The notes under the pieces were generated by a model, which was not told the origin of the DNA, searched no databases, and worked only from the letters and a program-made list of their open reading frames with translations. A program made the position numbers and the translations under genes. Below are positions 4,851-33,461 of a DNA stretch of 38,470 nucleotides, one piece after another. Within the stretch, counting starts at the first letter, position 1; each line of letters begins with the position of its first letter. The DNA is from an uncultured beta proteobacterium (lineage in GTDB: Bacteria; Pseudomonadota; Gammaproteobacteria; Burkholderiales; Burkholderiaceae_C). The stretch covers positions 1 to 38,470 of the forward strand of contig CAIOUR010000082.1 of NCBI GenBank assembly GCA_903861575.1. Reading direction: 5' to 3'.

Positions 4851-7481
4851 CTACTCTTGAACATCGGCATCCAGGCCAACTTCTTGAGCCTGTGGATCCA
4901 GTGCGGAAGGACCGGGTGGCAATCCAGCGGCCGCAAGGTACCAGCGTGCGGCCACAGCATAGTCCTGCGCCACACCCTGGCCGTTGGCGTACATGTGGCC
5001 CAGACAAAACTGGGCTCCGGAGTCACCTGTGTCAGCTGCGCGGCTGTACCACGCAAGGGTCAACGCGGGGTCGTGGGGCAGGCCCTCGGCAAGCCAATAC
5101 GCACGCGCCAACATGTACATCGCCAGCGGATCGCCCTGCAACGCGGCGCGCTCATAGGTCTGTGCGGCGCGACCAAGCGCCGCCGAATCCGCCGCGTCAG
5201 GTGCCAACGCAGCCAGGCGCAAGCCGTTAGCCAGGTTCACCATGGCTTGTACGTGGCCTTGCTGTGCCGCCTGCTCGAAATAACCTAGCGCCAGCGCGGA
5301 CGCCTCGCCGCTGTCCAGCGACTCTAAGACCCCAAGAGCAAACTGGGCCTCAGCCAGACCCGAAGACGCAGCCACATGCCACTGTGCACGGGCGCGGCCC
5401 AGAGCTGTCGCGTCCTGGTCGCGGGCACGCCAACCCATCACGCCCAGGTTGTACTGCGCGGCCAACTGATTTTGCGCGGCGGCTTTGGCATACCAGTGCG
5501 CGGCCAAGGCATGGTCGACCGGCGTGCCCTGGCCCAGGTCATACATGAGCGCCAAGTTGAACTGCGCTGATGCGTCGCCGGTATCCGCCAGGCTGCGGTA
5601 GTTATCCAGAATGCGGCGGAAGTCGGGCTGGAAATCGCGGCTGTCGGCGTGCATCAAGGTGTACTGCTGCAGTGCACCCGGGTGCCCCTGGTCGGCAGCC
5701 GCGCGCAACAAGGCGCTGGCCTCTAATGCCGCAAAGGAGGCTTGCTTGGATGATGCAGCATCGCGGATTCCCGGATTTTCCTGGGCCAGCAGCATGCCCA
5801 GCGCGTACTGGGCGCTGGGGTCACCGGCCTCGGCGGCGGCCTGGTAGTGGGTGGCGGCTTCCCAAACGTTGACGGGCGTACCTTGACCCAGCGCGTACAA
5901 AACACCCATGTTGTGGTGCGCCTGTGCGCAACCGAGTTCGGCTGCTGCACGCAAGCTACTGAGCGCGCGCGGAATGTCACGCGCAAAGGCGTGTCCGTCC
6001 TCGCGGCCGGCGCCGGGCACGGCGTCGGCAGCACCATCAGTAGCTGATGCGTAAATGACCCCCAAATTGAACCAAGCGTCCGCGTGATTTTTTAGCGCTG
6101 CTGGCTCGAAGCACAGCGCTGCCTGGGCGGCGTCGGCCTCCACACCCCAACCCTGGGCGTACATCACGCCCACGGTATACAGAGCCTCCGCGTTACCCGC
6201 ATCCGCTGACTGGCGTAGCAATTCAAAGGCTTGGGCATAACGCTGCGGCGCGTCGGGGGACTGCAGCAATAGCAGACCCCAATTGCAACGCGCCAGCGCG
6301 TCGCCTTGCTCGGCAGAACGGCGGTACCACTGCGCTGCGAGCACCGGGTCGGCGCTGACGCCCGCGCCCATGGCGTAGACCGCGCCCAGGTTGCACTGCG
6401 CACCAGCATGACCCAAATCGGCAGCGGTCTGGTAGTGCTGGCGCGCAGCCGCCAGATCCACCGCACCGGCGTCCCCGCTTTGGGCGAGACAACCCAGCAC
6501 AAAGTGGGCCTCGGCCAGACCCAAGGCTGCACTGCGCTGGTAGCCGGCCACGGCCTCTGCCATATCCAGCGGCAAGTGATCGCCTCGCGCGCTGAGTACC
6601 GCCAAATTAAAGATAGCCTGCGGATGATCCTGGGCAGCCGCGGCTCGGTAACAGTCGACTGCTTTCCCCATATCCGCCTGGCAGCCCTGACCCGTGGCAT
6701 ACATGACGCCCAAATTGAACTGGGCGCAAGCCAATCCGCTTTGCGAGGCCTGCGTGTACAGCGTGTGCGCCTCGGCAAAATCGGGCTCGGCGCCCTGACC
6801 CAGGGCGTTCATCAAGGCCAGATTGAACTGAGCCGCCGCATCGCCCTGACCGGCCGCCAGCGCGTACCACTTGCGTGCCTGCACCAGGTCTTGGGGCACA
6901 GCCGGTTGATGGCCTTGTGAGAGCAGCAGTCCCAGTTTGACTTGCGCATAGGCATGGCCTTGGGCGGCAGCGGATTCGTACCACTTGAGGGCTTGCACCA
7001 GGTCCTGGGGCAGGCCCTCACCATGGGCGTAAATCAGACCCAAATGGAATTGCGCGGTGGCATCGCCCTGGGCTGCCGCTTTGGCAAACCAATGCGCGGC
7101 GCGGGCGCTATCCTGCGGTGCACCCTGGCCATTGGCGTACATAAATGCCAGGTTGGTTTGCACATCCGACAGCCCTTGTTCGGCGGCACGCTCGTACCAT
7201 TCCAGGGCGATGGCATCGTCGCGGTCCACACCCTGGCCGTTGGCGTACATAAAGCCCAGGTTGTACTCAGCCGGCGCATAGCCCTGGTCTGCAGCCAGGC
7301 GGTACCACTTGAGGGCCTCGCGGTAATCCTGGTTCACGCCCTGGCCGTTGGCGTACATGAAGCCCAGGTTGTTTTGGGCCGCCGCATAGTCCAGCGAGGC
7401 CAGAGGCCGCGAAATGCGCAGCGCGTTGGCGAAGTCACCCCTGCGGTAGGCGGCGTTGGCGTCGTCGAGCAGGGTTTTCAC
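4851..7481 (-). CDS. Large Sel1-repeat protein (22 repeats)
   Basis: The 876-residue protein is built almost entirely of Sel1-like repeats (alpha-alpha hairpins of about 36 residues, typical unit 'AQFNLGVMYANGQGV..D...A..WY..AA.QG'). I count 22 repeats from about residue 33 to the end; the first four and the last are close to consensus, while several central ones (11, 13, 15, 16 and 18-20) are degenerate or carry insertions. There is no signal peptide or membrane segment, so it is probably cytoplasmic. Sel1 solenoids are protein-binding scaffolds; the partner is unknown. The start is a GTG at 7481, with few alternatives. The gene lies 20 bases before flgP in the same operon. A MotX-like role is unlikely because export signals and the MotX Cys-containing tail are missing. 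Confidence 0.85.
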   Translation of the reverse strand: MKTLLDDANAAYRRGDFANALRISRPLASLDYAAAQNNLGFMYANGQGVNQDYREALKWYRLAADQGYAPAEYNLGFMYANGQGVDRDDAIALEWYERAAEQGLSDVQTNLAFMYANGQGAPQDSARAAHWFAKAAAQGDATAQFHLGLIYAHGEGLPQDLVQALKWYESAAAQGHAYAQVKLGLLLSQGHQPAVPQDLVQARKWYALAAGQGDAAAQFNLALMNALGQGAEPDFAEAHTLYTQASQSGLACAQFNLGVMYATGQGCQADMGKAVDCYRAAAAQDHPQAIFNLAVLSARGDHLPLDMAEAVAGYQRSAALGLAEAHFVLGCLAQSGDAGAVDLAAARQHYQTAADLGHAGAQCNLGAVYAMGAGVSADPVLAAQWYRRSAEQGDALARCNWGLLLLQSPDAPQRYAQAFELLRQSADAGNAEALYTVGVMYAQGWGVEADAAQAALCFEPAALKNHADAWFNLGVIYASATDGAADAVPGAGREDGHAFARDIPRALSSLRAAAELGCAQAHHNMGVLYALGQGTPVNVWEAATHYQAAAEAGDPSAQYALGMLLAQENPGIRDAASSKQASFAALEASALLRAAADQGHPGALQQYTLMHADSRDFQPDFRRILDNYRSLADTGDASAQFNLALMYDLGQGTPVDHALAAHWYAKAAAQNQLAAQYNLGVMGWRARDQDATALGRARAQWHVAASSGLAEAQFALGVLESLDSGEASALALGYFEQAAQQGHVQAMVNLANGLRLAALAPDAADSAALGRAAQTYERAALQGDPLAMYMLARAYWLAEGLPHDPALTLAWYSRAADTGDSGAQFCLGHMYANGQGVAQDYAVAARWYLAAAGLPPGPSALDPQAQEVGLDADVQE

Positions 7482-9322: not shown

Positions 9323-10619
9323 GCGCCATCGGGTCGGGTGCGGAAGGCGCGCGGGTGTGCAACTCCGCCTCAAAACGCTGCAGTTCGCCTTGCAGATACT
9401 GCTGCTGCTGCGCGAACCACAGATCCCAATTGGGTTGGCTACTCAATGTGCGCCAAGTCGCTGAGGTACGCAGTGCCGCTAGCGCCTCATGGCGCTGACC
9501 CAGAGCGCTGCGCAAGGCACGCAAGCGCGCCTCCAGTGCCACCTGTTCTTCGTGCGCCACTTGCGCATCTGCTGCTTGCGCAGAACTTCCCGCCGCTGGA
9601 GGCACATCATCGGCGCGGGCCTGCGACTGAAACCCGGCCCGCGCCACCGATTCCTGCAGCGCGTAAAGAGCCGCCATATCGCCACGGCGGTAACTGGTTT
9701 GGAGGGATTGAAATAACTGCGCGGCGCGACCCTGGTCCTCATCGGCAACACGGTCGGGATGGCACTGCATAGCGAGTTTGCGGTAGAGCTGTTTGATCTG
9801 GTCCAAGGCATCATCGTCCAGGGTGTGCGGCCCGGCATCGTGGTCGGCAGCGGCTTGCGAGGCTTCGTAATCGCTCCAGCGCTGCTGCGCAGCATGGGCC
9901 TCCTCACGCGCCGTCTGGTCTTGCAGGGCCAGCTGCTGCAGGTACAGGGCTTTGGCGCGCAGGTAGTCGCGCATCAAGGGGCCCAGCGACTGCTCCTGGG
10001 CATGGTCGAACAAAGCCATCTGGCGCTGGGTTTCGGCAATTTCCGCCTGGGTCGCCAATGCATGGTTTTGCAGGACCTGCGCCAACCAAGCCTGCTGCGC
10101 GGGGCCGCCACCGCGCCGGACCTGCACTGCGCTCGACGCGGACATGGCAGCACCAAGGTCGATATGGACAGCACCCCAGCCCGCCTCTTCGTCCAGCACC
10201 TGGCGGGTTTGGCGCACAAATTCAGCGTCACTCCAGCGCAGCAAGCCGGGCACTTCCGAGGCGTCATCGGCGGGGCAGATGCCCGTGCCGAGCTTGCCGG
10301 TGAACACCTGGGTATCGTCCGTCACGAGGGCGAGTGCAGGAAAAGGTGCTTCCGCAGCGGCCGGGTCAAGGGCGGCTTGCCGCCAGGCAATTTGTCCGCC
10401 GATGGCGCTCAGGCGCTCCCAGGCAATGGCAGATTGGCGGTTGAAGGCGGTGTCTGGAATTGACAGTTGCACCTGAAGGCCCTGGCGCCGACACTGCACC
10501 AGCGCGTCAAACACCACGCGCGCAACCGTGTGTTTGCAGCGCAAAACCACACCGGTCTGCGCGCCGGCTAATGCATCCTCCAGTTGCACCCATTCCTGAT
10601 GGAAAAAGGCTTCAGTCAT
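9315..10619 (-). CDS. J-domain protein with N-terminal PLD-like region
   Basis: The 434-residue protein has a J domain at about residues 267-325 (LYRKLAMQCHPDR, with HPD at 287-289), so it should stimulate an Hsp70 (DnaK) ATPase. It lacks the G/F-rich region and zinc finger of classical DnaJ, which points to a dedicated co-chaperone. Residues about 22-110 resemble one half of a phospholipase D fold (VVFDALVQCRRQGLQVQLS, then a parallel of the HKD strand at ALALVTDDTQVFTGK), but the HKD catalytic residues are absent. Long helices flank the J domain at about 180-250 and 355-420. ATG 10619 overlaps the upstream Sel1 stop by eight bases; the same eight-base overlap recurs at the downstream junction. 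The PLD-like reading is tentative. Confidence 0.8.
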   Translation of the reverse strand: MTEAFFHQEWVQLEDALAGAQTGVVLRCKHTVARVVFDALVQCRRQGLQVQLSIPDTAFNRQSAIAWERLSAIGGQIAWRQAALDPAAAEAPFPALALVTDDTQVFTGKLGTGICPADDASEVPGLLRWSDAEFVRQTRQVLDEEAGWGAVHIDLGAAMSASSAVQVRRGGGPAQQAWLAQVLQNHALATQAEIAETQRQMALFDHAQEQSLGPLMRDYLRAKALYLQQLALQDQTAREEAHAAQQRWSDYEASQAAADHDAGPHTLDDDALDQIKQLYRKLAMQCHPDRVADEDQGRAAQLFQSLQTSYRRGDMAALYALQESVARAGFQSQARADDVPPAAGSSAQAADAQVAHEEQVALEARLRALRSALGQRHEALAALRTSATWRTLSSQPNWDLWFAQQQQYLQGELQRFEAELHTRAPSAPDPMAHA

Positions 10620-11937
10620 AACCCTGCAGGTTCTTCTTTTGTGCCTCGCGCGCAAGGTCTTGCGCCTGGGCAATGTGCTGTGCGGACATGCGCGCCGCCA
10701 CAAACTCGCGGCCTTGCACCCCGGCGGCGTTGCCGCCAGCGGCCGCAATGTTGAACCACATGTGTGCCTTCACGAAGTCCTGCAAAGTACCTTCGCCTTT
10801 GGCGTACATCCAACCCAAAGCGGCCTGGGCCGGCGCAAAACCCAAAGCTGCAGCCGCTCGGTAAGCCGCCAGCGCCGGCTGCACCCGCGGACCACCCGGC
10901 TGCTCCCGCTGGTACAACTGGCCGAGGTTGAACCAGGCACTGGCTTCACCCTGATCAGCCGCCAATTGCAACCACTGGCAAGCAACCTCCGCGTCCGCCT
11001 GGGTACCCTGGCCATTGGCGATCAAAACGCCCATTTGCAGCTGAGCCGCAGCGTCACCCTGCTCAGCAGCTTGACCGAACCAGACCAATGCTTGCGCAAA
11101 ATCCTGCTCCATGCCCTCACCCGACAGCGCCATAACTCCCAGGTTGAATTGGGCCGACACTTCTCCAAGCCCAGCAGCCGCGCGGTAATGTTCGGCCGCT
11201 TGCGGCAGATTGCGCGGTACGCCCGTACCAGTGCCATACATGACACCGAGGTTGTAGTGCGCCGCCGAATCCCCCTGCGCAGCGGCCTTGCCGTACCAAT
11301 TCAACGCCTGGTCAAAATCGCGCGCAGGTCCAACTGCCACGCTAAAGAGGTGGCCCAGATTAAATTGAGCCCGCCCATGCCCCTGTTCGGCTGCTCGGGT
11401 GTACCAATCGCGGGCCTGCGCCCAGTCTGGCGGATTTTGTTGGGCGCACAAAACACCCATGCCATATTGGGCGGCAGGCTCGCCGGACGCGGCTCCACGC
11501 GTCAAGTGGCTGCGCGCGCGCTCCGGGTCTGGGGGAACACCCTGGCCATTGGCGAACATGATGCCCAGGTTTGCGTGGGCCAAGGGGTCGCCCTGGGCGG
11601 CAGCTTGTTCATACAGCGCGCGGGCGCGGTCGAAGTCCTGCGCCACACCCAGGCCGTTGGCGTAAAACACAGCGAGGCAGGATTGGGCGGCGGGTTCGCC
11701 TTGGGCGGCGGCGGCCTCATACCAGCGGGCTGCAGATTCAAAGTCTTGTGGAACGCCCTGCCCATGTGCGTGCATGACGCCCAGGTTAGCTTGCGCCTGC
11801 GCCTGTCCGCGCATGGCGGCCGACTCATAGCACTGCAGGGCTTGTTCAAAATCCTGCGGCACGCCCAAACCTAGGGCATACATACTCCCCAGATTGGTCA
11901 AGGCGGCGCTGCGAGGGTCAGCCAATGCAGGGGTCAT
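10612..11937 (-). CDS. Sel1-repeat protein (11 repeats), first gene of the flgP-flgT operon
   Basis: The 441-residue protein consists of 11 regular Sel1 repeats from about residue 13 to 405 (first unit ALTNLGSMYALGLGVPQDF) and a helical C-terminal cap. No signal peptide or membrane helix is present, so it should be cytoplasmic. It is the first minus-strand gene after the 207-base divergent gap shared with the FleQ-type regulator and therefore probably heads the ten-gene operon that ends with fhlB. Its stop overlaps the start of the J-domain gene. The ribosome site before ATG 11937 is weak. Similarity in design to the 22-repeat protein at 4851-7481 suggests that the two act together or arose by duplication. 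Confidence 0.85.
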   Translation of the reverse strand: MTPALADPRSAALTNLGSMYALGLGVPQDFEQALQCYESAAMRGQAQAQANLGVMHAHGQGVPQDFESAARWYEAAAAQGEPAAQSCLAVFYANGLGVAQDFDRARALYEQAAAQGDPLAHANLGIMFANGQGVPPDPERARSHLTRGAASGEPAAQYGMGVLCAQQNPPDWAQARDWYTRAAEQGHGRAQFNLGHLFSVAVGPARDFDQALNWYGKAAAQGDSAAHYNLGVMYGTGTGVPRNLPQAAEHYRAAAGLGEVSAQFNLGVMALSGEGMEQDFAQALVWFGQAAEQGDAAAQLQMGVLIANGQGTQADAEVACQWLQLAADQGEASAWFNLGQLYQREQPGGPRVQPALAAYRAAAALGFAPAQAALGWMYAKGEGTLQDFVKAHMWFNIAAAGGNAAGVQGREFVAARMSAQHIAQAQDLAREAQKKNLQGYD

Positions 11938-29345: not shown

Positions 29346-30209
29346 ATGGTTGGCATTGGTGGAATCGTCTTCTTGTTGGTGTGCGTTTTTGGCAGCTTCA
29401 TCGTCGGCGGCGGGAATCTGCATCCCTTCATCCACGCGGCGCCCATTGAAGGTTGGTGTATTCTGGGCTCCGGCATCGGCGGCATGCTGATCGGCAACAG
29501 CATGGGCACCACCAAAGCCGTTTTTGCCGGCATCGGACGCACCTTTAAAGGGTCGAAGTACCACAAGGAGGATTACCTCAACACCATTTTCTGCGTCTCC
29601 AAGGTCATGAAGACGCTCAAGAGCGAGGGTGCCGTGGCCCTGGAAGCCCATATCGAAGCGCCAGAGTCCAGCGCGATATTCAGCGAATACCCCAAGATCC
29701 TGCACGACCACGCGCTCTTGCACCTGATTTGCGACACCGTTCGCCTGATGGTGGTCTCCCAAGGTACCTTGAGCCCCATGGCGGTGGAAGAGGTCATGGA
29801 CAACGCCATCAAAACCCACCACCATGACGAGCTGAAAGCCTCTACCGCCATCGGCACGCTCGCCGGTGCCCTGCCTGCGCTGGGAATCGTGTCCTGCGTG
29901 ATGGGTGTGGTGAAGACCATGGACGCGATTGACCAACCGCCGGCGATTCTGGGTGGCCTGGTGGGTGCGGCACTGGTGGGAACCTTCATCGGGGTATTTT
30001 TGGCATACGGATTTTTTGAGCCCTTCGCCAAGCGCCTGGAAGAAATCATCAACGACGAAGCCGCCATGTACGGCGTCGTCAAGCAAATCATCATCGGCAC
30101 CATGCACGGCCACCCCATGCCGCTGATTCTGGAAGGCGCGCGGGTTTGCATCAGCCACCACAACCAGCCCAGTTTTGCCGAAGTATTTGACGGGCTGCGC
30201 GGCAAGTAA
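29346..30209 (+). CDS. motA: Flagellar stator protein MotA
   Basis: The 287-residue protein has four membrane helices and the large cytoplasmic loop of MotA (PILHDHALLHLICDTVRLMV). The third and fourth helices carry the conserved STAIGTLAGALPALGIVSCV and AALVGTFIGVFLAYGFFEPF, with the usual proline residues. With MotB it forms the ion-driven stator. AGGAAG precedes ATG 29346. It is two bases from motB. Whether it uses protons or sodium cannot be decided from inspection, although the full-length form with a long loop is the classical proton type. Confidence 0.97.
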   Translation: MVGIGGIVFLLVCVFGSFIVGGGNLHPFIHAAPIEGWCILGSGIGGMLIGNSMGTTKAVFAGIGRTFKGSKYHKEDYLNTIFCVSKVMKTLKSEGAVALEAHIEAPESSAIFSEYPKILHDHALLHLICDTVRLMVVSQGTLSPMAVEEVMDNAIKTHHHDELKASTAIGTLAGALPALGIVSCVMGVVKTMDAIDQPPAILGGLVGAALVGTFIGVFLAYGFFEPFAKRLEEIINDEAAMYGVVKQIIIGTMHGHPMPLILEGARVCISHHNQPSFAEVFDGLRGK

Positions 30210-30211
30210 AC

Positions 30212-31213
30212 ATGGCGACTGAAGAAAAGGCACCGGAAGAAGAAGTCGTCCCGGCCGGGGCAGAAGAAGCCGGCCCGACGGACGCGGAAGCCCCGGCCGA
30301 AGACGCGCCCCTAGCGCCCATCATCGTCAAGAAAATTGCCGATGGTCATGGCGGTGCGCACGGCGGGGCCTGGAAAATTGCCCTCGCCGACATGATGACG
30401 GCCATGATGGCCTTTTTTCTGCTCATGTGGATTTTGGGCGCCACCAACGACTCGCAACGCAAAAGCGTGGCCGACTATTTCAAGCCCACCTCGCAAAGCG
30501 TGGTGGCCATGGGCCAACTGGCCGGATCCAACGGCATCATGGGCGGTCGCTCCATCATCGACCCCGACGGCTTTCCTTACACCGCCAAGCAAACTGCCGC
30601 GTTGCAAATGGTCACACCGCGCTCCGAAGGCGGCCCGACCGAAAACGATCCGTCTCCCAACAGCGAAAACGACCACGCCAAAGAGCGTGACGGGATGAAT
30701 GATTCGGACAAGAAAAAAATCGTCGAACAAGCGGACAAAGAAAACTTCGACAAGCTGGAAAAAGAAGTGCGCGAACAGTTGGAACAAAACCCGAACTTGC
30801 AAAAAATGCAAGGGCAGGTGCAGTTTGTTCGGGAAAAAGAAGGCCTGCGGATTGAGATCATCGACAAAGCCGATTTCTCGATGTTTGCGCTGGGCACCTC
30901 ACAAATGCAGGGCGGCGCCCAGGATTTGATTACTGAAGTTGCCAAATCGCTGGCCGGCATGAACAACAAAATTGCCGTGCGTGGTCACACCGACAGCCTG
31001 GGCTTTGCCAAGCCGGGAGCGCGCAACAACTGGTCGCTGTCCGCAGAACGCGCCGAAGCCACGCGCGCGATGTTCGAGAAAAAAGGGATCAAACCCGATC
31101 GCTTTGCGCAGATTGAGGGTGTTGCTGACACCATGCCCTACAACAACAATGATCCCAAAGATCCACGCAACCGGCGCATCAGTGTCACTGTGAAGTACCG
31201 TGACGGCGAATAA
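30212..31213 (+). CDS. motB: Flagellar stator protein MotB
   Basis: The 333-residue protein has an acidic N-terminal tail longer than usual (about 48 residues), then one membrane helix with the ion-binding Asp in WKIALADMMTAMMAFFLLMW, an acidic/Gln-rich plug region and a C-terminal OmpA-like peptidoglycan-binding domain (NKIAVRGHTDSLGFAKPGAR, NNWSLSAERAEATRAMF, DPRNRRISVTV). The domain order and the key Asp are intact. It overlaps the start of the next gene by 14 bases. Confidence 0.97.
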   Translation: MATEEKAPEEEVVPAGAEEAGPTDAEAPAEDAPLAPIIVKKIADGHGGAHGGAWKIALADMMTAMMAFFLLMWILGATNDSQRKSVADYFKPTSQSVVAMGQLAGSNGIMGGRSIIDPDGFPYTAKQTAALQMVTPRSEGGPTENDPSPNSENDHAKERDGMNDSDKKKIVEQADKENFDKLEKEVREQLEQNPNLQKMQGQVQFVREKEGLRIEIIDKADFSMFALGTSQMQGGAQDLITEVAKSLAGMNNKIAVRGHTDSLGFAKPGARNNWSLSAERAEATRAMFEKKGIKPDRFAQIEGVADTMPYNNNDPKDPRNRRISVTVKYRDGE

Positions 31214-31889
31214 GGTCCCGGCGGCGTCGCTGGTTTTTGCGCTCGAAGTCCCAGAGGGGGCCGCGACGGTGGTGCAGCCGTCCACCACTGATATGGTTTT
31301 TCTTCTGCTGCTCGGCATTGTCTTGGCGGCGGTCGGGCTGGTTGGATGGCGGGCATACGACGATGCCCAGAAGGAATTCAAAGCCGTCAGCAATGCAAAA
31401 GTCTGGGCGCAATGGCTCAGCGAGGCGGGACTGCAGCGGGGCAAGGCGAACTTTCACCCACAAGCCTGCGCACTGGCGGCAGCCAAAGAGGAACAGCCAC
31501 CACTGGCCATCCTGCTTGAGGGAAGCGGACGGGAATTGCTGCTCAACACCGAGTCCGGCCAAGGCGCCGATGTGCTGGCGGCGACGCCATCAGACGGGAG
31601 TTGGCGCGCGTGCGAGCAGGTCTTGCGAGAAGCCCGCGGGGCGCTGTCGGGCTTGCGCAACCCGTACAGCGGTGAAGTTCAAGCGAGCGCAGTGCGTTGC
31701 GATGCATCGGACCCTAAAACGGCCGGCGCAATTGTGTTGGAAAAAGCCAAGCCCTCGCTGATGGAGCCACGTCCTTTGGAGTTCACACCTCTGGCGGCCG
31801 AAGACCTTATACAGGTTCCGCTGAAGCTGAGGATATCGGTTTGCAGCCGCTGGGGTCAGCCGCGACCCGTGGCAGATCTTGATTTTTAA
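31200..31889 (+). CDS. Single-pass membrane protein of unknown function in the motAB operon
   Basis: The 229-residue protein starts at GTG 31200, overlapping the last 14 bases of motB. One membrane helix lies at about 32-51 (VFLLLLGIVLAAVGLVGW), and the remaining 175 residues should be periplasmic. That domain holds four Cys (90, 138, 167, 215) that could form two disulphides, a segment ALSGLRNPYSGE, and a beta-like end PLKLRISVCSRWGQ. I recognise no family. Expression with MotA and MotB and a periplasmic location suggest a stator accessory, but this is inference. It ends four bases before the next gene. Confidence 0.75.
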   Translation: MTANKVPAASLVFALEVPEGAATVVQPSTTDMVFLLLLGIVLAAVGLVGWRAYDDAQKEFKAVSNAKVWAQWLSEAGLQRGKANFHPQACALAAAKEEQPPLAILLEGSGRELLLNTESGQGADVLAATPSDGSWRACEQVLREARGALSGLRNPYSGEVQASAVRCDASDPKTAGAIVLEKAKPSLMEPRPLEFTPLAAEDLIQVPLKLRISVCSRWGQPRPVADLDF

Positions 31890-31893
31890 TCCC

Positions 31894-32997
31894 ATGAACG
31901 AGCCCTCTCAGCCTGCGGGTCCCGTGGCATCCGCGCATAGCCCGCGCGGCGAACAGCTGCATGCCCGGCCTTGGCGCCAGCGGCTCTACAGCCTGCTTTA
32001 TTCGGAACCACAACCCGGCTCGCCCGCGCGCACGCTGCGTATGGTGTTGTGCGCCAGTGCTGCCGTGAGCGTGGTTCTGTTCAGCCTCGACATCGCGCGC
32101 GGCTTGTACCATCAAAGCCCCGATCCGCTGCTGCATGTTTTGCATGTTCTGACGACGGCCATTTTCTGTGCTGACTACCTCGCGAGGATGTACGTTGCCG
32201 TCGAGCATCCTGGTAGCCGTGGCGATTTCGCGGCGCGTCTGGTATGCCTACGTCGACCCGAAATGGCGCTGGAAGCGGTGACGCTGGCACCGTTTTTTCT
32301 CGGCTTTTGGCTGCCCGTGACGCTCGACTTCCGGTTTTTGCGCGCGATACGCTTTCTGCAACTGATTCCATCGCGGAGTTTTGCGCGATCACGCTCCTAC
32401 ATTGCGGAACTGATGACGCAGATTTGGCCACTAACCCTTGCGGTGGGCCTGTCGCTGCTGGCCACAGGGATCACGGTCTACGGAGCGTTACAGGCACTGG
32501 GCAGTGGTGCCCTGTGGGATACCGGACTGGGCTCTGGAAGCACGCCACTTGCATTCACTTTGGTGTTGGTTGTGGTGCTGCTTTTGGTATTTTTTGCCGG
32601 ATTGTTGCTGGCGCAGCAGCGCGATGGGCGAAGCATCAGTCCGCGGCCCGAGGGAGCGGAGTCCTTGCCGATAAGCCACCCGCAAAACGCAGGCCCCTTC
32701 GCACTTCAAGTCATCAGCCCGATGCAGGTGTTGGGCAAACCAGAGCAGGCGCTTGCCCACTTTGATGTGCTACTCGCCCAAATTCGTTACATAGGGGTCC
32801 TGACCGACCATGGGCAGTTCGCGTCACTGGCCCGGGAAGGCCGCATCAGCCGTGCGGACTACGCCGTGTGGCTGCACATTCAGGGCTATCCTGTGCACCC
32901 ACTGCAAGGTGGCTTTGGCGCGCAGTGGCGGGTACGCTACTCGCAGCCTTTGTACAACCTCTTCACGCAAGCGTCCACCCACCGGTTGGATTCCTGA
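31894..32997 (+). CDS. Voltage-sensor-like membrane protein lacking a pore filter
   Basis: The 367-residue protein resembles a six-helix voltage-gated channel. The S2-like helix has FCADYLARMY (F91, D94), the S3-like one MALEAVTLAPFF (E127), and the S4-like one an RxxRxxR ladder, FRFLRAIRF (R147, R150, R153), followed by more basic residues. Two hydrophobic helices follow at about 177-198 and 219-241, where S5 and S6 would be. Between them is a short GSGALWDTGLGSGSTPLAF and no TVGYG filter or pore helix. A soluble C-terminal part of about 120 residues ends the protein. Start ATG 31894 is four bases after the previous stop. The gene shares the motAB operon. The 3' end overlaps the convergent motX-like gene by 61 bases. 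Confidence 0.75.
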   Translation: MNEPSQPAGPVASAHSPRGEQLHARPWRQRLYSLLYSEPQPGSPARTLRMVLCASAAVSVVLFSLDIARGLYHQSPDPLLHVLHVLTTAIFCADYLARMYVAVEHPGSRGDFAARLVCLRRPEMALEAVTLAPFFLGFWLPVTLDFRFLRAIRFLQLIPSRSFARSRSYIAELMTQIWPLTLAVGLSLLATGITVYGALQALGSGALWDTGLGSGSTPLAFTLVLVVVLLLVFFAGLLLAQQRDGRSISPRPEGAESLPISHPQNAGPFALQVISPMQVLGKPEQALAHFDVLLAQIRYIGVLTDHGQFASLAREGRISRADYAVWLHIQGYPVHPLQGGFGAQWRVRYSQPLYNLFTQASTHRLDS

Positions 32998-33425
32998 ATC
33001 GCGGCGGCGTCAAGCGCCGCCGCAACGCGTTGACGGTCTTTGTAAGCATCCGGGTGACCTGCTGCATCGGCAAGACCGTACCAACGGTGGGCCATGGCCG
33101 GATTCTTTTCGAACCCGTGTCCTTTCTCATACATGGATCCGAGCTTGAATTGGGCTTTGGCCACACCCTGTGCAGCCGCCATACGCAGCAAGCGATGGGC
33201 CTCCGGGTAGTTCAGCGGTACGCCCTGGCCAAAGGCATACATTTCACCGAGCAAGGACTGCGCATTGGGATTACCCGCTTCCGCAACATTGCGCCATTTT
33301 TTCACAGCCGCCGGAAAGTCACGGCGCTGGTAATCGGCATAACCGTCCTCCCAATCACCGGCGACGACAGGACGGGCCAACAAAGTGGCAAACACACAGA
33401 GGACACCAGCGCGCATCAGAGACAT
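32937..33425 (-). CDS. motX: MotX-like secreted Sel1-repeat protein (T-ring)
   Basis: The 162-residue protein has a signal peptide (MRAGVLCVFATLLARPVVAG, cut near VAGDW), about three Sel1 repeats (AQSLLGEMYAFGQGVPLNY, AKAQFKLGSMYEKGHGF) and a C-terminal NRWVDACVKRLYKGCE with a Cys pair, resembling the MotX tail of Vibrio. MotX, with MotY, forms the T-ring that holds the stators to the LP-ring/H-ring. GAGGTG lies nine bases before ATG 33425; an upstream ATG 33455 adds residues without a ribosome site. Generic secreted Sel1 proteins are an alternative, but its place beside motAB and with flgP/flgT in the window supports MotX. No motY gene was seen. Confidence 0.6.
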   Translation of the reverse strand: MSLMRAGVLCVFATLLARPVVAGDWEDGYADYQRRDFPAAVKKWRNVAEAGNPNAQSLLGEMYAFGQGVPLNYPEAHRLLRMAAAQGVAKAQFKLGSMYEKGHGFEKNPAMAHRWYGLADAAGHPDAYKDRQRVAAALDAAAIQESNRWVDACVKRLYKGCE

Positions 33426-33461
33426 AAGCCACACCTCACAAACAAGAACCAGCATTTTCGA

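Follow-up and report, generated by a model that had tools for sequence, protein, structure and literature searches.

Genes and features behind motB

The stretch of DNA analysed in the current study (the window) comprises 38,470 nucleotides of contig CAIOUR010000082.1 from an uncultured beta proteobacterium, and holds a flagellar gene cluster with FlhB, FliM, FliK and FlhA and, later, motA and motB. P0001, an open reading frame (ORF) separated from motB by one gene, unk229, appears to encode a voltage sensor without an ion-selective filter (Table 1). The unk229 gene begins with a GTG start codon and overlaps the motB stop by 14 bases, and P0001 starts 4 bases past the end of unk229. This overlapping or near-contiguous order agrees with a sequence-only reading of the window, which had placed the gene after motA-motB and one unknown gene. 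The ORFs between FlhA and motA are presumably FlhF, FlhG and FliA, as read from their sequence.

Hydropathy analysis of P0001 gave peaks at residues 50-68, 79-97, 124-142, 177-195 and 221-239. The S4 segment formed no peak, yet it carries arginines, and with the five peaks it makes up six segments with an S4-like ladder, as had been proposed from the sequence. The interval between the last two helices consists only of ALGSGALWDTGLGSGST, without a GYG-type filter. At their 3' ends, P0001 and a Sel1-repeat gene overlap on opposite strands (32937-32997); the overlap covers the last 20 codons of P0001, and the extension of the protein partly reads the antisense strand of the Sel1 gene. It was also observed that the C-terminus of the Sel1 protein differs in the clade of filter-less genes.

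Table 1. Genes at the locus and parts of the P0001 protein (positions in the window; res, residues).
Feature	Position	Strand	Remarks
motA, stator protein	29346..30209	+	NCBIfam TIGR03818 MotA1, 310.8 bits vs cut-off 303.8
motB, stator protein	30212..31213	+	Pfam MotB_plug and OmpA over cut-off
unk229, 229 residues, one hydrophobic helix (~32-50)	31200..31889	+	homologue of the gene upstream of cassette-type channels
P0001, putative filter-less single voltage-sensor protein, 367 residues	31894..32997	+	
P0001 S1 (res 48-66)	32035..32091	+	acid D66; E in 12/12 aligned channels
P0001 S2 (res 79-100)	32128..32193	+	F91 and D94; F and E in 12/12 aligned channels
P0001 S3 (res 124-141)	32263..32316	+	E127; D in 12/12 aligned channels
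P0001 S4 (res 147-160)	32332..32373	+	R147/R150/R153 kept; R4 -> Q156, K5 -> P159
P0001 S5-like helix (res 177-200)	32422..32493	+	
P0001 short Gly/Ser loop (res 201-217)	32494..32544	+	channels have pore helix and (V/I)GYGD here
P0001 last membrane helix (res 218-241)	32545..32616	+	alignment to channel S6 insecure
P0001 C-terminal tail (res 277-331)	32722..32886	+	conservation higher than that of the sensor
P0001 extension (res 332-367)	32887..32994	+	absent from aligned channels
Sel1-repeat protein	32937..33455	-	Pfam Sel1 E 1.1e-16; marks the far side of the insertion

Descent from two-sensor potassium channels

Judged by homology, P0001 is a filter-less derivative of a family of bacterial potassium (K+) channels that carry two voltage sensors in tandem. 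The parent channels, of about 550 residues, consist of two voltage-sensor domains, a single pore whose filter reads (V/I)GYGD, and a tail, and Pfam Ion_trans was found twice in each of two parent channels scanned. A profile comparison (hhalign) aligned columns 24-345 of the P0001 family to columns 185-555 of the channels (probability 99.8, E 6.5e-29), that is, to the second sensor, S5 and tail of the parent. The first-sensor part of the alignment was empty in the filter-less rows, barring one stray residue. A single-sequence search with P0001 matched a channel from a different genome of the same genus (E 2.5e-16). These results indicate that the second sensor and the tail of the parent persist in P0001, whereas its first sensor, pore helix and filter are gone. 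The sequence-only reading could not see this ancestry, in which P0001 and unk229 apparently derive together from a K+ channel cassette that now lies behind motB.

Searches covered 61 related genomes, 103 from the genus, two family samples of 299 and 399, and 398 from the phylum. Among the 61 related genomes, the window's own included, the filter-less gene was found in two others (G005, whole; G016, split), and channels of about 550 residues were found in other members of the genus, with two more in the window's own genome. The parent channel occurs in 35/103 genomes of the genus and in 7/299 sampled genomes of the family. P0001 does have homologues whose filter is intact, all 86 of the 86 channel ORFs in 80 loci keeping TLAS(V/I)GYGD, but none was found inside the filter-less group.

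When six genomes were searched, matches to the tail came from P0001 and the two-sensor channels alone, and from no motor protein. A search for the sister channel by tree gave no answer because the filter-less clade sits on a long branch. The alignments used were one with 12 channels taken from the first hits, and one with 7 filter-less and 29 channel rows chosen for spread.

As separate observations, a two-sensor relative is indicated, by its match range, in another family of the order (genome G786), and in G237 the channel match (L127:8050-9880) spans two overlapping frames, so that this copy may be broken or misread.

Sensor residues, loop and predicted fold

The sequence-only reading had pointed to F91, D94, E127, R147, R150 and R153, and all six sit where it had placed them; D66 in S1 was added in the current study. 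Eight sensor positions (D66, F91, D94, E127, D145, R147, R150 and R153) are invariant in all 6 full-length filter-less members, against a background of 50 invariant positions among the 113 of S1-S4. The hypergeometric p of 0.001 for this invariance is only indicative, because D66 and D145 were added after looking. The seventh member (G016) lies on two contigs, and its pieces agree with the other six. Relative to the channels, the acidic partners were exchanged conservatively (S1 E->D, S2 E->D, S3 D->E). R1-R3 of S4 are kept, and R4 has changed to Q, H or L and K5 to P, so that the ladder is cut to three arginines.

P0001 has the sensor hallmarks of the voltage-gated ion channel superfamily (an S4 arginine ladder, an S2 Phe and acid, and an S3 acid), and lacks its pore hallmarks, the pore helix and the selectivity filter. 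Direct Pfam, NCBIfam and single-sequence PDB searches with P0001 returned nothing usable. The Ion_trans profile (PF00520) matched 5/7 members at E <= 1 (best 1.6e-5) and did not match P0001 itself. The best PDB profile match was the K+ channel KCNQ2. Structure prediction and fold comparison gave a predicted voltage-sensor fold, as the sequence-only reading had expected, with a sensor fold and residues like those of Kv channels in the PDB (KCNQ, Kv4 and others). Taken with the profile alignment, this supports homology of P0001 to a voltage sensor.

As had been read from the sequence of P0001, no TVGYG-type filter lies between the last two helices, and GYGD is absent from 7/7 filter-less members. 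The loop (about 17 residues in P0001) varies in length and sequence among the members, 5/7 of which have no GYG, and all 7 filter-less rows share G211, S216, T217 and P218. No pore helix was predicted between the last two helices of P0001, in a part of the model with low confidence. The motifs TGYGA and AGYGA, found in G005 and G372, were considered as a relic of the filter; this was not adopted, 5/7 members lacking GYGA and the loop length being variable.

Selective constraint

Pairwise ratios of nonsynonymous to synonymous substitution (dN/dS) between P0001 and five members, over residues 1-347, were 0.21-0.27; they are rough, because the synonymous differences in those pairs (0.44-0.70) are near saturation in the distant ones. 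By part, the ratios were 0.15-0.28 for S1-S4, 0.15-0.27 for S5-S6 and 0.48-0.66 for the linker, and the strongest constraint was seen in the tail (residues 277-347, 0.035-0.14). These ranges exclude the last 20 codons, which overlap Sel1. With an earlier set of comparisons taken in as well, the overall ratio spans 0.20-0.27. The filter-less gene has no internal stop codon in any of the 7 genomes. Among the 12 channels conservation was highest in the pore (0.83) and weak in the tail (0.53), and among 6 filter-less proteins it was 0.79 in the tail, 0.67 in the sensor and 0.65 in S5-S6; only the order within each set counts, because the two sets differ in depth. By these ratios, purifying selection acts on the filter-less members compared, and it is most stringent in the tail.

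The cassette of unk229 and the channel

A scan of genome contigs kept 80 of 523 relatives. In 75 of the 80 loci the gene immediately preceding the channel is an unk229 homologue; in the remaining 5 the contig begins fewer than 225 bases ahead of the channel. Many loci contain further channel-like ORFs, one (Kv2) in 62/80 and a second (Kv3) in 57/80; in the window's own genome the filters of Kv2 and Kv3 are SGYGN and SGWGN. In that genome the cassette at G000:C31 (L021:7298-11573) consists of unk229, the two-sensor channel and the SGYGN and SGWGN channel-like genes, and a fourth Ion_trans gene, with TTGYGD, adjoins it on the other strand. The 80 record titles mostly name Comamonadaceae or Burkholderiales metagenome bins, Limnohabitans, Rhodoferax and Polaromonas included, and several name lakes.

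These data place unk229 in the parent channel cassette. In the family sample of 299 genomes, unk229 was found in 5, all with a channel, and 2/7 genomes with a channel match (G319 and G335) had no unk229. The pairing is not fixed, since channels of other subtypes stand without unk229, e.g. G000:C88, for which the search of that genome gave no unk229 match. Of the six second channel copies in the 80 loci, five lack a preceding unk229, and the sixth is truncated where its contig ends. The Unk229 protein gave no convincing match in Pfam, NCBIfam or PDB. A 40-row alignment (A7) revealed four family-invariant cysteines (C90, C138, C167 and C215), and the part that carries them is presumed to be periplasmic.

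Two further observations concern these loci. A two-sensor channel with one pore, usually accompanied by a gene for a single-helix partner, recurs in Comamonadaceae genomes (L042-L121). One record (L108), titled Rickettsia typhi, carries a cassette of the Comamonadaceae type, and its title is probably wrong for a metagenome bin.

Insertion behind motB and its distribution

The filter-less gene was present in 7/103 genomes of the genus, the window's own included, and in the family sample of 399 genomes only in the window's own. The order motB-unk229-P0001 was seen in 6/7 (the G372 contig begins just upstream of unk229), and an antisense Sel1 gene follows in 7/7 (in G016, on the second contig). 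In G031 and G008, an intact two-sensor channel with unk229 lies between motB and the Sel1 gene, with 500-600 bases of other coding frames ahead of Sel1; in the G031 copy C204, Sel1 runs in the motB direction. The insertion is therefore carried by two lineages, one of them with an intact channel. G031 contains three motB-linked channel copies (C8, C161 and C204), and this bin is 7% contaminated and probably a mixture of strains.

The region behind motB was inspected in 19 (20 regions) of the 38 genus genomes with this MotB, in addition to the 7 filter-less genomes, G031 and G008, with 10 left out; 17 of the 20 regions were empty and in 3 the contig ended at motB. In a MotAB tree, one branch parts filled from empty loci (support 99/97), and therefore one insertion or one loss suffices, the direction not being readable because the tree is unrooted. 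The junction is unseen in 3 of its 19 'empty' rows; L172 (partial) and G372 (motB on another contig) are omitted, and one of the three G031 copies was used. The conserved link to flagellar genes on which the sequence-only reading depended holds within the clade that carries the gene, but 17 other loci of the genus have nothing inserted at this motB junction. The link is thus genuine, though confined to a small group.

This MotB type and the channels co-occur strongly in the genus (both in 28/103 genomes, MotB only in 10, channel only in 7), and among good genomes the same 13/51 carry both. The counts were made by hand and then tested statistically. This co-occurrence was set aside as functional evidence because one clade may explain it.

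Relation to known systems

P0001 shares with its parent channel the second voltage sensor, the tail and the cassette-type partner gene unk229, and differs from it in lacking the first sensor, the pore helix and the GYGD filter, and in its extended tail. Compared with Kv channels of known structure, the sensor is shared and the pore helix and filter are missing. According to the available text on TMEM266 (PMC6392501), that protein resembles P0001 in its RxxRxxR S4, S2 Phe and acid, S3 acid, S1 acid, lack of a K+ pore and cytoplasmic tail. Its charge-transfer centre, as far as the published features are given there, has counterparts in R147/R150/R153, F91/D94 and E127, with D and E exchanged. 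Unlike P0001, which has two extra helices and apparently a bacterial K+ channel origin, TMEM266 is described in that text as having four helices only, as restricted to vertebrates and as having Hv1 for its closest relative. The nearest relatives of P0001 found were bacterial K+ channels; TMEM266 was compared by its described features.

Hv1, in the accessible part of a 2023 review (PMC10377628), is likewise a voltage sensor without a K+ filter and with three S4 arginines; P0001 differs in having no W in S4 and in having S5-S6. The same part of that review finds no evidence for Hv channels in prokaryotes, and states that every prokaryotic voltage-sensing domain known so far is accompanied by a pore selective for K+, Na+ or Ca2+. 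The voltage-gated channel NaVBP and its kin in alkaliphilic Bacillus are linked with motility, and conduct Na+, as the available text of PMC4225499 describes. The 6TM-6TM tandem channels of eukaryotes (available text of PMC7576140) have two sensors per chain, like the parent family, but two pores instead of one. PMC13095418, to judge from its available part, is a general review of voltage sensors. Among the matches listed in the open-licence literature, there was no report of a two-sensor one-pore channel, of its cassette or of a pore-less bacterial sensor, and, in line with the sequence-only reading, none of a flagellar component of this kind.

Possible function of P0001

The best explanation of these data, to which about an even chance is given, is that P0001 is a maintained filter-less voltage sensor, likely non-conducting and co-encoded with the stators. 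In the mechanism proposed, a copy of the unk229 and channel cassette would have landed between motB and the Sel1 gene, and in one clade the first voltage sensor and the K+ filter of the channel would have disappeared, leaving its second sensor, two more helices and the C-terminal tail, with unk229 still present as the partner gene. P0001 would then sense voltage in the membrane without conducting ions, and would be produced along with the stator proteins. Its S4 would shift with membrane potential, within the physiological range, and the conserved tail would serve as the output that relays this state, the target being either the flagellar motor or a process switched together with it. P0001 may in this way let the cell feel membrane voltage without passing ions. 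A more specific version, which is doubtful at present, would make it the first voltage sensor from bacteria to lack an ion-selective pore, i.e. a K+ channel turned into a non-conducting gauge, whose tail reports to the stators and whose partner is unk229.

Several observations weigh against this explanation. The sensor ladder is shorter than that of the parent channels, and three gating arginines may give weak voltage sensitivity. The confidence of the fold model drops to 53-72 from S5 through the last helix, the model's input contained 29 channel rows of 36, which may bias the fold, and a Foldseek search with it gave no match at E <= 0.001 (best 1.3e-3). The synonymous differences are high, as noted above, the branch of the filter-less clade is long (2.76), and GYGA occurs in the loop of 2/7 members (G005, G372). 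Regarding the motor, neither motA nor motB was found within <= 8 kilobases on each side of the 80 cassette loci, and the link consists of gene order inherited in one clade, approximately one evolutionary event. Moreover, antisense Sel1 directly follows motB in 17 loci of 16 other genus genomes with motAB, and because this junction is empty there, P0001 is not a core part of the motor. Finally, two-sensor channels, whole or partial, occur elsewhere in 6/7 filter-less genomes, and the target of P0001 could therefore be these channel copies.

This last point leads to an alternative that is rather unlikely, though of real weight because no protein other than P0001 and the channels was found to carry the tail in the six searched genomes. 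P0001 could be a silent regulatory subunit, joining the intact channels of the same genome through the shared tail and lowering or shifting the K+ current, which would tie flagellar expression to K+ conductance. The channels present in the same genomes and the unk229 partner family common to P0001 and the cassette channels would fit such a role. On the other hand, the loss of the pore helix and filter would make a normal place in the tetramer impossible, the tail carries an added extension that the aligned channels do not have, and no channel copy was found in G016, though that genome is 75% complete. The sequences of the loop bear on a different proposal, that P0001 still conducts as an unselective channel with a rebuilt pore loop. 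The remaining S5- and S6-like helices, the four invariant loop residues and the GYGA of two members speak for it; this is nevertheless quite improbable given a loop of about 17 residues, variable among members, the lack of GYG in the other five and the absence of a predicted pore helix at low confidence.

A proton- or cation-permeable sensor like Hv1, leaking H+ beside the H+-driven stators, would be compatible with the three-arginine S4 and polar fourth position of P0001, its S1 acid and the lack of a K+ filter. Seven residues ahead of the S1 acid P0001 has a serine (S59), at a position taken here, by an ungapped count from that acid, to be the one of the Hv1 selectivity aspartate. S5-S6 are kept in P0001, unlike in Hv1. 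Proton conduction of this kind has little probability, and is less likely because the S4 of P0001 reads R-F-L-R-A-I-R and not the Hv motif RxWRxxR, as given in the available part of PMC10377628. Least expected is that P0001 is the remnant of a channel in decay, a functionless passenger of the motAB operon. The loss of one sensor and the filter, the long branch and the overlap of the 3' end with Sel1 would all be in keeping with decay, but the codon analysis disfavours it (low dN/dS in all 5 comparisons, and lowest in the tail), as do the absence of internal stop codons in 7 genomes and the retained sensor residues.

The sensing of membrane potential by bacteria and a voltage-responsive regulator of stators are, in the authors' judgement, open questions. 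If true, a filter-less sensor kept by selection within a motAB operon would break the rule stated in the accessible part of PMC10377628, and would give a direct handle for testing voltage sensing in motility.

Sel1-repeat genes of the window

The Sel1 gene behind P0001 scored below cut-off with all NCBIfam families; MotX (E 0.0014) ranked behind MerG, ExoR and AlgK. On this weak match to the Vibrio protein MotX, the gene (32937-33455, minus strand) may encode a stator accessory protein. Two long Sel1-repeat proteins are encoded in the same flagellar cluster, at 4851-7481 and 10615-11937, both on the minus strand.
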